Of a stretch of 64,000 nucleotides of DNA, positions 23,628-56,446 are shown piece by piece; position 1 is the first letter of the stretch; each line of letters begins with the position of its first letter. A program made the position numbers and the translations under genes. Origin of the DNA: Planctomycetota bacterium. Its GTDB lineage: Bacteria; Planctomycetota; B15-G4. Location: the NCBI GenBank assembly GCA_029259745.1, contig JAJDEO010000065.1, positions 124,001 through 188,000 of the forward strand, written 5' to 3'. Below the pieces are notes generated by a model, which saw only the letters and a list, made by a program, of their open reading frames with translations, had not been told where the DNA came from and made no database searches.

Positions 23628-24122
23628 TCAGTCGTCGCGACGCAGCACGAGCTCGTCGATCTCCTCGCCGCGCGCCTCGGCGTACCCGCGTTCCTCGTCG
23701 ATCACCGTGAAGGCGCAGGCCTCGAGGACGCGCCGCGACGCGATGTTGTCGGCTGCCGTGCGCGCGTGGATCGGGCGACGGCCGTCGATTTCGAGAAACG
23801 CCGCGAGCGCAGCGCGCGCCACGCCGCGTCCCCACCAAGCGCGATCGATCCAGAAGGTCACTTCGGCGTCGCCGGCGCGCTCGAAGCTCGCCACGTGGCC
23901 GACGACGACGCCGTTGATGACGATCGTGCGCGTGACGATGCTCGGCACCTTGCGGATTGCCGACCAGTGCGCCACGTGGGCCTCAAGGTCGCTCGGGTCC
24001 TCGGGCACGAAAGCCGCCATGTGACAGGCCTCGGCGTCCTGCATGTGCGCGAAGAAGACGAGCACGTCGTCGTCGATGACGTCGCGCAGAGTGACCTCGA
24101 CCGACTTCGACTCGGCACTCAT
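23628..24122 (-). CDS. GNAT-family N-acetyltransferase coupled to the selenoprotein
   Basis: A 164-residue RimJ-like acetyltransferase: VTLRDVIDDDVLVFFAHMQD, INGVVVGHVASFERAGDAEV, FWIDRAWWGRGVARAALAAF (acetyl-CoA loop) and RTAADNIASRRVLEACAFTV. Its ATG overlaps the TGA stop of the upstream gene (24119-24122, ATGA), so translation is probably coupled to that of the candidate selenoprotein. The start is chosen because of that overlap; the open frame extends further upstream but as a shadow of the neighbouring gene. The substrate is unknown. Confidence 0.85.
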   Translation of the reverse strand: MSAESKSVEVTLRDVIDDDVLVFFAHMQDAEACHMAAFVPEDPSDLEAHVAHWSAIRKVPSIVTRTIVINGVVVGHVASFERAGDAEVTFWIDRAWWGRGVARAALAAFLEIDGRRPIHARTAADNIASRRVLEACAFTVIDEERGYAEARGEEIDELVLRRDD

Positions 24123-25432
24123 CGTTCGGGCAGTCCGCATTCGGCCGGTGACAGCAGCCAGTTGGCGACGTCGGGATGCTCGAGCCACGGGGCGTCGTAG
24201 ACGCTCGCAAAGGCCGGCGGGATGCGGCTCTCGGTCGAGCGCACGTGGAACGACAACAGGCCCGCCGCGACATCGCGACCACGAGCGTTGTTCTCCGTAC
24301 GCCCCCAGCGCCGCCCCACGGCGACGAGTTGAAAGGCCGTGAAGCGCTGCTCGGCGGCACTCCACGTCGCGGTCCCCATGACGTCACAGTCGATGCCGTG
24401 CGCAAACTCGCGCTGGGGTTTCCACTCGCTGAACGGCATGAGCCATGCGCCGTCCGAGCGCGCCGCCGTGCGACCGCGCAGCTCGAAGCGCGCCACGCCC
24501 GCGTCGACATCCACGACCGTGGCGAGCAGCTCGGCTGCCGTCACGTCCTCGGCGGCGTACGGGATCGTCTGTCCACCGACGTTGTCGACGAAGTGGAAGC
24601 GCGCGAGGCGCTCGGCGAACGACGGCCAGCGGAACGCATCACCTTCCTGAATAGGCTCGTCGCCGACCAGCGCCGTCGCCTCGGCACGCGAGAGCCAGAC
24701 GTGGTCGCGGTTCCAGCGACGCCCAGGACTTCCATCGAGCCCCTCGGTCGTGACGTCGCGGCCTACGCGCTCGAGCGCGAGCCCGTCGTCGGGAAAGAAC
24801 GCTTCATAACGGTGGGCCGAGTCGAAGTTCGCGTCGGCCGGAATCCGTCGCTCGTCTTCGGAGAGTTCACTCCACGCGGCGAGTCCGGCGGCCATCATCT
24901 CGAGCTGTCGCTCGACGTTGCGCGTGTTGACGCGCGCGAGCACCTTGCCGCTCGGCGCGATCACCCACGAACCCTGACGCGTGCCGCGGTCGGTGATGCG
25001 ATCGCCGCCCGTCACCATGCGCTGGAAGAAGAGACAGTCGGCTTCCGAGCCGCGCTGCAGACGCCAGACCTCGTCAGCCGCACAGACGAAGTCACCCGTC
25101 GCTGCGATCACGCGCGGGTCGGAGTAGACGGACACACGGTCCGCGACGCCATTGCCTCAGGTACAGCCCAGCGGGTGCCCGTTCATGAGCCAGAGCAACA
25201 GCGGTCGCTGTTCGGTCTCGGAACGCTCGAGGCCGGAGACCATGTCGGGGAGCCAGGGGATCGACTCGGCGGCAAGCTCGGCCGCCGAAGGGCGGATGAA
25301 GTCGCGCCAGCGCTCGAGGTCACCGATCTCGAGCACGGGCGGGCGCAGACTCGCGGCGAGGTCGGCGCCGTCGTCGACGGGCCCGGGAACGAGGAGGCTC
25401 AAGCCCGTCAGCAGCGTTGCGAAGGTGGTCAT
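24119..25432 (-). CDS. Candidate selenoprotein of unknown function, in-frame TGA at codon 92
   Basis: Read through one TGA (25157-25159), the frame gives 437 residues. Before it: a signal-like MTTFATLLTGLSLLVPG and RPLLLWLMNGHPLGCT. After it: GNGVADRVSVYSDPRVIAAT, DEVWRLQRGSEADCLFFQRM and 300 more residues with clear coding character, including RWNRDHVWLSRAEATALVGD and FHFVDNVGGQTIPYA. Both parts are in the same frame and neither has a convincing independent end or start. The result is a Cys-Thr-Sec-Gly site, as in redox selenoproteins, with a SECIS-like hairpin 13 bases downstream. A Sec signal suggests export. I do not know the family's function. The alternative is a nonsense mutation, or two separate genes with a GTG start at 25135. 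Confidence 0.7.
25129..25143 (-). promoter_or_regulatory. SECIS-like hairpin for UGA recoding
   Basis: On the minus-strand mRNA, CGGAC-CGTGT-GTCCG forms a 5-bp perfect stem (a G-U pair can extend it) with a 5-base loop whose second base is G. The loop begins 18 bases after the UGA at 25157-25159. Bacterial SECIS elements are small stem-loops within the coding region shortly after UGA, with a G at the start of the loop, so the geometry fits. The stem is short and could occur by chance in GC-rich DNA. Confidence 0.5.
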
Positions 25433-52549: not shown

Positions 52550-53152
52550 TCAGACGTCCTCGTACTCTTCGAGGAGCTGCTTGATGCGCTGAGCGAGACG
52601 CTGCCGAGTGTTGTAGACGACGGTATCCGTGACGCCGAAGTGCTCTGTCACTTCAGCCAGCGCACAGCCGTCGATGACCGACATGCGGAAGATCTCGTAC
52701 GTGCGCGGATTCACTTCGCGCTGCAGTTGACGCAGCGCGCGCTTGTAGATCGCCGCGCGCCACTCTTCTTCCCAGACGGCCTCGGCGGGGTCGTCCTGCC
52801 CGAGCACGAGATCGGCGACGCTCGACGTCTCCGGGAGCGCCACGGTGTTTGCACGCTGGCGCATGACCTTCGAACGCGCGTTCTGTGCCTGACGATGGGC
52901 GATCCCGAACAGCCAACTCTTGAGGCGGCCTTTCGACGGATCGAACTTGCCGTTGCGCATCGAATCGGCGAAGACGATCAGCGTCTCCTGCGCTGCGTCT
53001 TGTGCGTCTTGCGGGGTGAGTCCGAGACGCACTCCGAGCCGGATGACAGGCTCGCGAAAGTGATCGACGAGGAGATCCCACGTCGTCCGGTCGTCGAACT
53101 TTCGCAGCCGATCGATGATCGTCGACGTCGTTCGCCATTCACGTTCGCTCAT
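52550..53152 (-). CDS. ECF RNA polymerase sigma factor paired with kinases
   Basis: A 200-residue ECF sigma factor. Region 2: WDLLVDHFREPVIRLGVRLG, DAQDAAQETLIVFADSMRNG and RLKSWLFGIAHRQAQNARSK; region 4: NPRTYEIFRMSVIDGCALAE followed by helix VTEHFGVTDTVVYNTRQRLA. GGAG lies eight bases before the ATG at 53152. It sits between two kinases on the same strand, 109 bases after the SUMF1-kinase and 15 before the zinc-finger kinase. This arrangement matches planctomycetal sigma-kinase modules, in which the kinase is thought to control the sigma factor. The target promoters are unknown. Confidence 0.9.
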   Translation of the reverse strand: MSEREWRTTSTIIDRLRKFDDRTTWDLLVDHFREPVIRLGVRLGLTPQDAQDAAQETLIVFADSMRNGKFDPSKGRLKSWLFGIAHRQAQNARSKVMRQRANTVALPETSSVADLVLGQDDPAEAVWEEEWRAAIYKRALRQLQREVNPRTYEIFRMSVIDGCALAEVTEHFGVTDTVVYNTRQRLAQRIKQLLEEYEDV

Positions 53153-53261: not shown

Positions 53262-56200
53262 TCAACGCCCCATGATCGGCCGCGCAGGACGGAGGCCCAG
53301 CGCGCGCTCCAGGACGTGCGACGCGTGATTGCCGCGAGAGGCCGAACGCGTTCCACCTGGCGACGTCAGGAACGAGCCGCCGCGGATCACGTACTCGAGC
53401 TTGTACATCTCCCCGAAGCCGTTCGGACCGGGCGTCGGTCGATAGAGCGTGCGACACCACTCCAAGACGTTGCCGTGGACACAGCTCAACCCGAACGGGT
53501 TCTCGCGTCCGTAGTCGATGGTCTCGTGGATGATCGCGCCGTCGTCGAAGCCCGGCCACATCAGCGGCGCATCGAAGTCCGCACCCCCGCGATCACCGGC
53601 CATGTCGAAGAAGTTCACCACGTCGGTCAGATCGTCTCGTGTCGAGCCGGCCCACCAAGGCGTCGTCGTTCCTCCGCGTGCCGCGTACTCCCACTCACTC
53701 TCCGACGGGAGGACAAGCCCGTACCACGTGAGGAGCTTGACGCTTTCATCCCACGTGACGTTCTCGACGGGACGCAACAATGTCCGCGCGCGCTCGCCCG
53801 CCTTGTTCGCCCCGGGCGGATAGTGCGCCGGGTTGTGGCCGGTCATGCGCACCCACTGTCCCTGTGAAAGCTCGTACTTCGACATGAAGTACGGCTCGAG
53901 CGTCTCCTCGTACACCGGCCCTTCGGTCTTCTCGGCCATCGGGTCGTAGTTGTGGCCTTCGGGATCATAGGACTGTGCGCCGAGCCAGGCCGTGCCGCCG
54001 GGGATCAGCACGAGCACGATGCCCGTGTCCAGGTCGAGGACGAGTCCACCGTCTTCGGCGCGCTGCGGTTCGGCGCCAGACATCGCGTGCCAGAACTCCC
54101 AGAGACCACTCTCGCGATCGCGCCCGATCGGGAGGAGCCCGAACTGCGGCGTGATGTCGAGGCCGCCGTAGATGTCGAGCGTGGCGATCGATGCGACGGC
54201 CGCGTTCCAGCGGCGACGCGCGTCACGGCTCGTCAGCGTCAGCTCTTCGAGTCGACGTGTTTCCTCGAGGCGCCGCGCGACGCCCCAACCGTGCGCGCGC
54301 GAGATTCCGTCGATGAGACCTTGCTCGGCGTCGCTGAAGCTCTCGATCTCGGCAATGATGCGCACGATCTCCCCGTGCCACAGGGCGTCATCGCCATCCT
54401 CGAACGTGAACATTCGCTGCTGACAGACCTGTGCAGCGAGGTCATCGCGCTCGACGATCACGGCCGGGAGATTCGTTTCGATCCGATCGCGTATCCGGGC
54501 TTCGGCGGGCGTGATCTTTCCGGCCTCGGTCTTGCGCCTGAGTTCGGACAGCACGCCTTCGAGCTCGGCGACGCCGTCACGCTTGTCCACCCACTCGGCG
54601 TACTCGGGGTGTCGCTGCCAGTCGAGTTGGAGAGCCTCGGCGCTGATGGGCAAGGCCCGCTCGCGCAGCGCTGCGAGTCGCTCGCGATGTCCGAGGACTT
54701 TGTGGTCTGGCGACGAATCAAGCGTCGCCACGAGCGCATCGGCACGCTCGAGCCAGTCTTCGTAGAGTGGGATGTCGTCCGGTGACAGCGGCCAGAGTTC
54801 GTCGGCCTCGGCGACAAGTCGATCGCGCATCGGCGAGACGAGCAACCGCAGCACGCGTGAGCGCTCCAACTCGGCCTCACGCCGTGCCTCGCGAGCATCG
54901 TCGAGCGAGATGGCCAGGTCGGCATTGCGCGACTCGAGCACCTCGCCCATGTCTTGTTCGCGATCGAGCGCCAGCGTCAGGGCCTCGTTCTGCACCCCCA
55001 GCTCGTTCGACAACTGCGCGAACATCGCGACGCCCGCAAACGCCACGACGATCAGTGCCGCGAGCGTGCCGGCGAGCCCGCGGTTGCGCACCACCCACTT
55101 GCGCAACTCCGCGACGGCGCCGGTTTCGTAGGCCGAAACGACGCGCTGCTCGAGAAAGGCGCGCAGATCGTCGGCGAGCTCAGATGTGTCGGAGTAGCGC
55201 TCACCGACGTCACGAGCCATGGCCTTGTCGCAGATGGCCACCAGCTCTTCCGGCGCATCGGCCGCGACACGGTGGAGCGGGTCGGGCGGCCCCTTCGTGA
55301 GTTCCGCCAAGACGGCCCGCACCTTGCCGCCCGTCTCCCGCGTGTACGGCGGGCGACGCGCGAGCAGATGATAGATCATCGCGCCGATGGCATAGACATC
55401 GTGCGCTGGCGAGATGAGTTCCCCGGCGCCGGACGCCTGTTCGGGCGGCATGTAGACCGGCGTCCCGACGACACGATGACCGCCCGTCGTGCGCGCCGTC
55501 TTCGACGTCTCGAGCGCATCCCCGTCGAACGCCGTATCGATCGAGACGGTCTCGTAGCCATCGGTGTTCCGATCGACGACGCACGCCAGGCCCCAATCCA
55601 TGACGTAGACCTCGCCGAACGCTCCGACCATGATGTTCGACGGCTTCAGGTCACGATGGATCACGCCCTTCGCATGGGCATACGACATCGCTTCGCAGAC
55701 GCGCAGCAACAGCCCCAGCACGCGCGTGCGCGTCCAGTCTTTGCTTCCCGAATGCACGCGCTCGAAAACCGCGCGCAGCGTCTCGCCCTTCACGAGCTTC
55801 ATCGTGAAGAAGACGTGCCCGTCGTCGTCGAGCCCGACCTCGTGCACGGGCACGATGCCGGGGTGATCGAGCTGCCCGGTGATCTGCGCTTCTTCGAGGA
55901 ACTGGCGCACCTTCGAGAAGTCCGCGCGTGGCACCGCGGGCGTGGGCGTGCCGTCGGATGCGTCTGCGCCGACGTGCCGACGCAGGTCTTCGAGCAGGCG
56001 GTCGACGCTGCCCGAGCCCATCTCGTCGCCCTGGACATCGGCGGGGACCGTGCCGTCGCCAATCTCCCCCTGCAGGACCTTCATCGCGAGATTGCGGCGC
56101 AGGTCCTCATCCCAGACGCGCAGCACTTTCCCCATGCCGCCGCGCCCGACGCACTCGTGCACGAGATAGCGATCGCCGACGACCTGACGCGAGGCGAGCC

Positions 56201-56360
56201 GTCGCAACACGTCGATCGCCTTGCGGGAGGCTTCGTCGGAGCCGGGCCCGTGCAGACTGATCTCGGGATCGACATCCCCGAAGAGCTGCTCAAGGCGCGC
56301 CCGCAGGCGCCCGTCCCCCGACACCGACGCCATCGGCTCGGTGCCACCTCCATCGACCAT
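53262..56360 (-). CDS. Ser/Thr protein kinase with C-terminal FGE/SUMF1 domain
   Basis: A 1032-residue kinase. An N-terminal stretch precedes the catalytic domain: VGRGGMGKVLRVWDEDL, Lys94 in LAMKVLQGEI, VIHRDLKPSNIM and VMDWGLACVV (DWG in place of DFG), with VYMPPEQASGAGELIS. A membrane helix (GTLAALIVVAFAGVAMF) near residue 450 is followed by a long helical region (about 470-770) and a formylglycine-generating-enzyme-like domain (about 790-1032): MSKYELSQGQWVRMTGHNPA, LPSESEWEYAARGGTTTPW, GNVLEWCRTLYRPTPG, YVIRGGSFLTSPGGTRSASR. In such kinases the domain is thought to bind ligands rather than oxidise Cys. GGGAG precedes the ATG at 56360. Confidence 0.9.
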   Translation of the reverse strand: MVDGGGTEPMASVSGDGRLRARLEQLFGDVDPEISLHGPGSDEASRKAIDVLRRLASRQVVGDRYLVHECVGRGGMGKVLRVWDEDLRRNLAMKVLQGEIGDGTVPADVQGDEMGSGSVDRLLEDLRRHVGADASDGTPTPAVPRADFSKVRQFLEEAQITGQLDHPGIVPVHEVGLDDDGHVFFTMKLVKGETLRAVFERVHSGSKDWTRTRVLGLLLRVCEAMSYAHAKGVIHRDLKPSNIMVGAFGEVYVMDWGLACVVDRNTDGYETVSIDTAFDGDALETSKTARTTGGHRVVGTPVYMPPEQASGAGELISPAHDVYAIGAMIYHLLARRPPYTRETGGKVRAVLAELTKGPPDPLHRVAADAPEELVAICDKAMARDVGERYSDTSELADDLRAFLEQRVVSAYETGAVAELRKWVVRNRGLAGTLAALIVVAFAGVAMFAQLSNELGVQNEALTLALDREQDMGEVLESRNADLAISLDDAREARREAELERSRVLRLLVSPMRDRLVAEADELWPLSPDDIPLYEDWLERADALVATLDSSPDHKVLGHRERLAALRERALPISAEALQLDWQRHPEYAEWVDKRDGVAELEGVLSELRRKTEAGKITPAEARIRDRIETNLPAVIVERDDLAAQVCQQRMFTFEDGDDALWHGEIVRIIAEIESFSDAEQGLIDGISRAHGWGVARRLEETRRLEELTLTSRDARRRWNAAVASIATLDIYGGLDITPQFGLLPIGRDRESGLWEFWHAMSGAEPQRAEDGGLVLDLDTGIVLVLIPGGTAWLGAQSYDPEGHNYDPMAEKTEGPVYEETLEPYFMSKYELSQGQWVRMTGHNPAHYPPGANKAGERARTLLRPVENVTWDESVKLLTWYGLVLPSESEWEYAARGGTTTPWWAGSTRDDLTDVVNFFDMAGDRGGADFDAPLMWPGFDDGAIIHETIDYGRENPFGLSCVHGNVLEWCRTLYRPTPGPNGFGEMYKLEYVIRGGSFLTSPGGTRSASRGNHASHVLERALGLRPARPIMGR

Positions 56361-56410
56361 GCTTCGCTCCCGACGCTCACTCCACGCATCGGTGATCCTA
56401 CAGCACGGCA

Positions 56411-56446
56411 CGCGGGGCGAGGGTGGCGCACCACCCTCGCCCCGCG
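56411..56446. terminator. Strong hairpin after the propeller gene
   Basis: A perfect 16-bp GC-rich stem (56411-56426 with 56431-56446) around a 4-base loop, plus a second small hairpin at 56445-56462, lies 17 bases after the stop of the minus-strand gene at 56480. No U tract is present. It also separates that gene from the start of the kinase operon. Confidence 0.7.

Follow-up and report, generated by a model that had tools for sequence, protein, structure and literature searches.

The minus-strand gene at positions 24119-25432 of the stretch of Planctomycetota DNA analysed here (64,000 nucleotides, hereafter the window) very likely encodes a selenoprotein, with the UGA at codon 92 as its selenocysteine codon (Sec92); the evidence is comparative, and selenium has not been detected directly. 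A single TGA at 25159-25157 divides one 437-codon frame. The upstream frame (25432-25160, minus strand) begins with an ATG, has 91 residues and ends in ...RPLLLWLMNGHPLGCT, and the downstream frame stays in phase up to a TGA at 24121-24119. An earlier note, made from the sequence alone, had described two in-phase frames split by one TGA, with GTG 25135 as the first downstream start: both statements held, and all its coordinates were right. The gene and its recoded codon are:

24119-25432, minus strand: the whole putative selenoprotein gene, read through the TGA (437 amino acids, terminal stop TGA at 24121-24119; supported by homologs)
25157-25159, minus strand: the in-frame TGA, very likely the selenocysteine codon of residue 92 (TGA at 65 of 73 distinct aligned sites)

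Homologs of this protein retain the TGA at the same position. Protein searches recovered matches in 20 of 58 related genomes, nearly all of the site-spanning ones with exactly one TGA, and named metagenome assemblies of Planctomycetota supplied three more loci. These homologs are mostly 27-47% identical and align across the TGA; the TGA column is constant throughout the first alignment (28 homologs, median pairwise identity 34%). Oriented translations give the motif [KR]PxLLWxMNGHPLGCTU[NG]NG, and the invariant residues include Trp60, Pro77, Met83, Gly85, Gly95 and Arg99 (window numbering). A profile of 27 homologs, termed A1, had matches in 120 of the 392 Planctomycetota genomes sampled, and a TGA-bearing copy is present in 86 of the 392. 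Readthrough of the TGA at an identical codon in independent homologs is not attributable to chance.

A first alternative is that the locus comprises two adjacent genes, or a single gene recently inactivated by a nonsense mutation. In its favour, two open frames are separated by just one stop, and ordinary in-phase neighbours do exist in the window (at 52550). Against it, the same TGA recurs in 65 distinct sites and 86 genomes, and invariant residues follow it directly, ahead of any start codon. The earliest downstream start, GTG 25135 (Val100), lies inside the loop of the predicted SECIS element and would omit the family-invariant Gly95 and Arg99; since both are encoded after the TGA yet ahead of any usable start, the second frame is no gene of its own. 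Further, in close pairs with computable dS, the dN/dS ratio is 0.06-0.20 for the part ahead of the TGA and 0.04-0.10 for the part behind it, so that both sides are likely under purifying selection, though the stretches are short and the estimates rough. Because the TGA itself is conserved, the two-gene or pseudogene reading is refuted, and we regard it as all but excluded.

The genome to which the window belongs encodes the complete decoding apparatus: selA (424 bits, C20), selB (332 bits, C2) and selD (303 bits, C34), all above curated cut-offs, and a tRNA-Sec (71 bits) with the anticodon UCA (TCA in DNA) located 3.5 kb from selA. Across the 392 Planctomycetota genomes, a strong selA match is found in 83 of the 86 TGA-bearing genomes compared with 158 of the remaining 306 (Fisher p = 7e-17). 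The three TGA-bearing genomes without a full selA (G215, G263 and G279) count against the selenoprotein reading. Their assemblies are, however, incomplete (completeness 67, 91 and 87% respectively), and one has a weak selA fragment; hence, the missing genes are probably assembly gaps. The genomes in which only non-Sec copies were found (G106, G178 and G295) are without selA.

Downstream of the UGA lies a candidate recoding element:

25128-25144, minus strand: predicted bacterial SECIS hairpin, with a 6-bp stem and the loop CGUGU (G at the second loop position), the loop being 18 nt after the UGA

It meets the published bacterial SECIS model, which specifies a spacing of 16-37 nt after the UGA and a G within the first two loop positions (PMC13188914). 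Its support is clear for the homolog set and weak for the single sequence: the window hairpin (-12.5 kcal/mol over a 38-nt stretch) is by itself no more stable than shuffles (z = -1.1), and this unexceptional stability is a point against the selenoprotein reading. In 27 aligned sequences, the stem columns 15-21/27-33 have 73.5% of cells paired and a covariation of 0.339, against 0.21 in shuffles (0 of 500 reach the observed value) and 0.07-0.16 in slid controls. Over the 65 sites the best-stem score is 16.3, compared with 11.3 +/- 0.5 (sd of the mean) in synonymous shuffles, none of 100 of which reach it; stretches taken as controls from other parts of the genes have no stem excess, save a small one upstream. 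In a minority of the homologs the hairpin is in a shifted register, a further point against the selenoprotein reading. A second register (columns 22-26 with 30-34) was rejected as unsupported over the whole set, though some sequences apparently use it.

A second alternative is that the UGA is translated as an amino acid other than Sec, by a general recoding to Trp or by plain stop-codon readthrough. This has no specific support, and several observations oppose it: the gene itself and most homologs terminate in TGA; a tRNA-Sec with anticodon UCA is present; copies without TGA show Ser, Asp or Pro and never Trp; and there is both the strong co-occurrence with selA and the SECIS hairpin. We consider it, too, all but excluded.

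Another point against the selenoprotein reading is the lack of Cys-containing counterparts in the core family; selenoproteins usually have such homologs, although they are not obligatory. The 73 distinct readable sites, from all loci fetched by that stage, comprise 65 with TGA, six with Ser, one with Asp, one with Pro and none with Cys. Outside the Planctomycetota we performed only a single scan with six exact peptides, and Cys homologs elsewhere are thus not excluded. The sites of the non-Sec copies are degenerate (GHPLGATSSAG, GNPLGLPDFAPS and GHPLGPGPG), which indicates that Sec was lost along with the motif rather than swapped for Cys. In a quick tree these copies are scattered among Sec copies, with four changes, at least three of them forced by well supported branches. 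This pattern is consistent with an ancestral Sec and several losses, even if long branches leave the details unsure. The earlier note's proposal of a selenoprotein is therefore strongly supported by homologs, machinery and hairpin, short of direct detection of Sec. It had suggested searching for homologs across the TGA and for selA, selB, selC (tRNA-Sec) and selD in the genome, and both checks were passed; homologs starting or ending at the TGA, which it would have taken as a refutation, were not found. Its expectation of homologs with Cys (TGC/TGT) failed in the core family, Cys being found only in a distant sister branch.

Two loci show further variation at or beyond the site. In L086 (G118:C37) tandem paralogs are observed, a TGA copy with the motif HPCAVVUNNG adjoining a degenerate Ser copy; this pair may capture a loss of Sec that followed duplication. 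L092 (G358:C55) has a second in-frame TGA, 323 codons past the Sec codon and within the aligned region, which might be either an early stop or a second Sec.

The sister branch emerged from a search with the thioredoxin domain alone (query A3), which retrieved more Planctomycetota proteins with a TGA at the Sec column and other motifs: RCUVFAGAAR, GNCUAGSVAVR, GLUSAGHSLR, ECULGGRILR, LCUVGGNALR, HCUATATQAR, YVUGNGVVAR and VWUPGKQ. Almost all of them have an Arg at Sec+7. The looser set includes loci L138, L140, L141, L143, L144, L146, L148, L153, L155, L158, L159 and L164. Of the wider-set proteins scanned against NCBIfam and Pfam, only L154 reached a cut-off; it is a UxxC protein of the Thioredoxin_2/Thioredoxin_7 type. 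In the branch with the motif ULGGRxxR, two genomes without a selA match, G022 and G355, have Cys (TGC) at the Sec column, and these forms are 35-38% identical to a TGA form; the sister branch thus supplies the Sec/Cys pair missing in the core family, which counts in favour of the selenoprotein reading:

L152:258-953 and L137:1368-2147: ULGGRxxR-branch proteins with Cys (TGC), from two genomes in which no selA was found

A bolder reading, for which we see slightly more reason to doubt than to believe, is of a phylum-specific radiation of exported thioredoxin-like selenoproteins with Sec at the thioredoxin nucleophile site and Arg at Sec+7, in which the core Sec is ancestral and not replaceable by Cys, so that lost sites degenerate to Ser, Asp or Pro. 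If true, these proteins would perform a chemistry possible only with selenium.

The predicted architecture of the protein provides the basis for functional inference:

25376-25432, minus strand: signal-like hydrophobic stretch at the N-terminus, only weakly marked in the window copy and clear in most homologs
24866-25327, minus strand: probable thioredoxin-like domain, about residues 36-189 (AlphaFold2 pLDDT mostly >90, Foldseek matches to DsbH and AGR2, weak Thioredoxin_7 and DsbH matches in homologs)
24158-24781, minus strand: predicted C-terminal beta-rich domain, about residues 218-425, of no known family (AlphaFold2 model, weak Foldseek matches only)
25163-25165, minus strand: Cys90 of the C-T-U motif, the probable resolving cysteine, kept in 26 of 28 homologs
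25148-25150, minus strand: Gly95, invariant in the homolog alignment, replacing the second Cys of the thioredoxin CxxC (from an alignment with PDB 3ira, CHWC, of weak E-value)
25136-25138, minus strand: Arg99 (Sec+7), invariant in the homolog alignment and also found in most of the distant selenoprotein relatives

The AlphaFold2 model (pLDDT 88, pTM 0.86) has a thioredoxin-like domain followed by a beta-rich domain. Foldseek ranked a DsbH-domain protein (7tkv) first, with the thioredoxin-like AGR2/AGR3 among the next; the top matches have probabilities of 0.98-1.0 with modest E-values (1e-3 to 3e-2). A thioredoxin-like fold is hence likely, as predicted by the model. Sequence searches with the single protein against Pfam, NCBIfam and PDB found no match, a profile search of PDB gave weak matches only, and a viral fold library and viral contigs returned nothing meaningful. 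A separate fold search with the C-terminal domain gave no confident match, LmcA and a haemophore being weak ones. In the alignment with 3ira, Sec and Gly95 take the columns of the first and second Cys respectively, a placement consistent with their distance from the [YFW]SDP motif. A CxxC active site is therefore absent, with U-x-x-G in its place and a Cys at -2, and a near-invariant Gln153 occupies the usual cis-Pro site (aligned by eye). Some homologs, among them L018 (PTU) and L099 (AGU), keep Sec and are missing the Cys at -2, which points to Sec as the indispensable residue and to Cys90 as a helper. Several homologs have a lipoprotein-like Cys in the N-terminal segment, and, judging from these N-termini, the protein is likely exported, despite the weak signal in the window copy.

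From fold and motif alone, we infer that the best functional assignment is an extracytoplasmic selenol oxidoreductase or peroxidase. Between the two, a thiol-disulfide role, likewise inferred, is a call that the present evidence leaves finely balanced. The alternative of a peroxidase, resembling glutathione peroxidase or peroxiredoxin, has in its favour the invariant Gly in place of the second CxxC Cys, the retention of Sec without Cys90 in the PTU and AGU homologs, and the Gln at the usual cis-Pro site. Against this, the nearest folds are DsbH and AGR2 and not peroxiredoxins, and the presence of Cys90 in 26 of 28 homologs suggests an internal selenenylsulfide; we lean slightly away from it. 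It is also conceivable that the protein is no catalyst and that its C-T-U site serves to bind or transport a metalloid or a soft metal, such as mercury or copper. CxU sites could bind soft metals well, and the beta-rich domain, with its weak LmcA and haemophore matches, could bind a ligand; yet both the thioredoxin nucleophile position and the Arg conserved at +7 speak for catalysis, making a metal-binding role very unlikely.

On the comparative evidence, SelB and tRNA-Sec very likely decode UGA 92 under the direction of the hairpin that begins about 12 nt downstream. Sec92 is predicted to lie just past the first strand, at the start of the next helix, in the position of the attacking thiol of thioredoxins. 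Under the preferred reading as a selenol catalyst, its selenolate would attack a disulfide or peroxide in the cell envelope. Sec92 would then become linked to Cys90 at position -2, and some thiol donor, as yet unidentified, would reset the site. Arg99 would probably stabilise the selenolate or bind the substrate; that the beta-rich domain confers substrate specificity is no more than a guess.

The genomic context of the gene is less informative. Its stop codon overlaps the ATG of a GNAT acetyltransferase gene (23628-24122, minus strand; Acetyltransf_3, 5e-14) in the sequence ATGA, and this overlap suggests translational coupling. Across 33 loci no gene neighbourhood is conserved beyond near relatives, the overlapping GNAT gene does not recur, and the neighbours give no conserved pointer to a partner protein. 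Elsewhere in the window, a superficially similar TGA (52552-52550, minus strand) stands in frame between long open frames; on one side of it is what looks by eye like the C-terminus of a sigma factor, on the other a gene for a Ser/Thr kinase with WD40 repeats. Unlike the Sec92 gene, these are likely ordinary in-phase neighbours. The same window encodes a large protein with a Ser/Thr kinase domain and a sulfatase-modifying-factor (FGE) domain (53262-56411, minus strand).

These results add a widespread selenoprotein family (in 86 to 120 of 392 Planctomycetota genomes) in a phylum whose use of Sec is hardly described. Standard annotation likely cuts genes of this type in two. The family offers a direct test case for the relation between Sec and Cys, since dozens of its members have Sec, several have degenerate sites without it, and none with Cys was found.

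As far as the open-access literature allows, this is likely a new, unnamed family of thioredoxin-like selenoproteins. No Pfam or NCBIfam model (June 2026) reaches its cut-off in the core family, and a 2026 catalogue of 119 prokaryotic selenoprotein families, which includes CxU and thioredoxin-like entries (PMC13188914), has no entry recognisable as this family by motif or model. The selenoproteins of two Planctomycetes isolates are listed in the supplement of PMC4807772, and individual members may therefore already have been noticed. The earlier note's view of an undescribed protein thus holds as far as it can be tested, and its description as secreted and redox-like holds as probable, the function being inferred from fold and motif.

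Four known groups bear comparison. The VPGUxxT proteins of types 1 and 2 (NF041382, NF041383) share a distantly related thioredoxin-like domain, and their models are the best-scoring of NCBIfam for one core member and several relatives, albeit far below the cut-offs of 350 and 275 (core best 14.9 bits, distant relatives at most 25.9); they differ in that the Sec92 family has the motif GHPLGCTU[NG]NG and a different C-terminal part. The Trx7/PDZ domain-containing (seleno)proteins (NF041199) also possess a thioredoxin-like selenoprotein domain, but are characterized by a CxxU motif and a PDZ domain (PMC13188914 Table 1), unlike the Sec92 family; this model has no match at E up to 1 among 27 A1 members and scores 11.7 bits in the outlying member L094 and at most 32.7 in a distant relative, against a cut-off of 300. 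The thioredoxin-like selenoprotein Sec.1 (PF13192; PMC13188914 Table 1), compared by its catalogue entry only, resembles the family in its CxU on a thioredoxin-like domain, whereas the Sec92 protein has no PF13192 match and the family has a large extra domain. The fourth group, Thioredoxin_7 (PF13899) and Thioredox_DsbH, DUF255 (PF03190), whose matches in the family are all below Pfam cut-offs, shares the thioredoxin-like fold, the placement of Sec92 at the first Cys of CxxC and the flanks of the site, namely a K/R-P-hydrophobic strand before it and [YFW]-x-D-P after it; the Sec92 family is set apart from these by the loss of CxxC with Gly for the second Cys, the extra Cys at Sec-2 and the C-terminal beta-rich domain.
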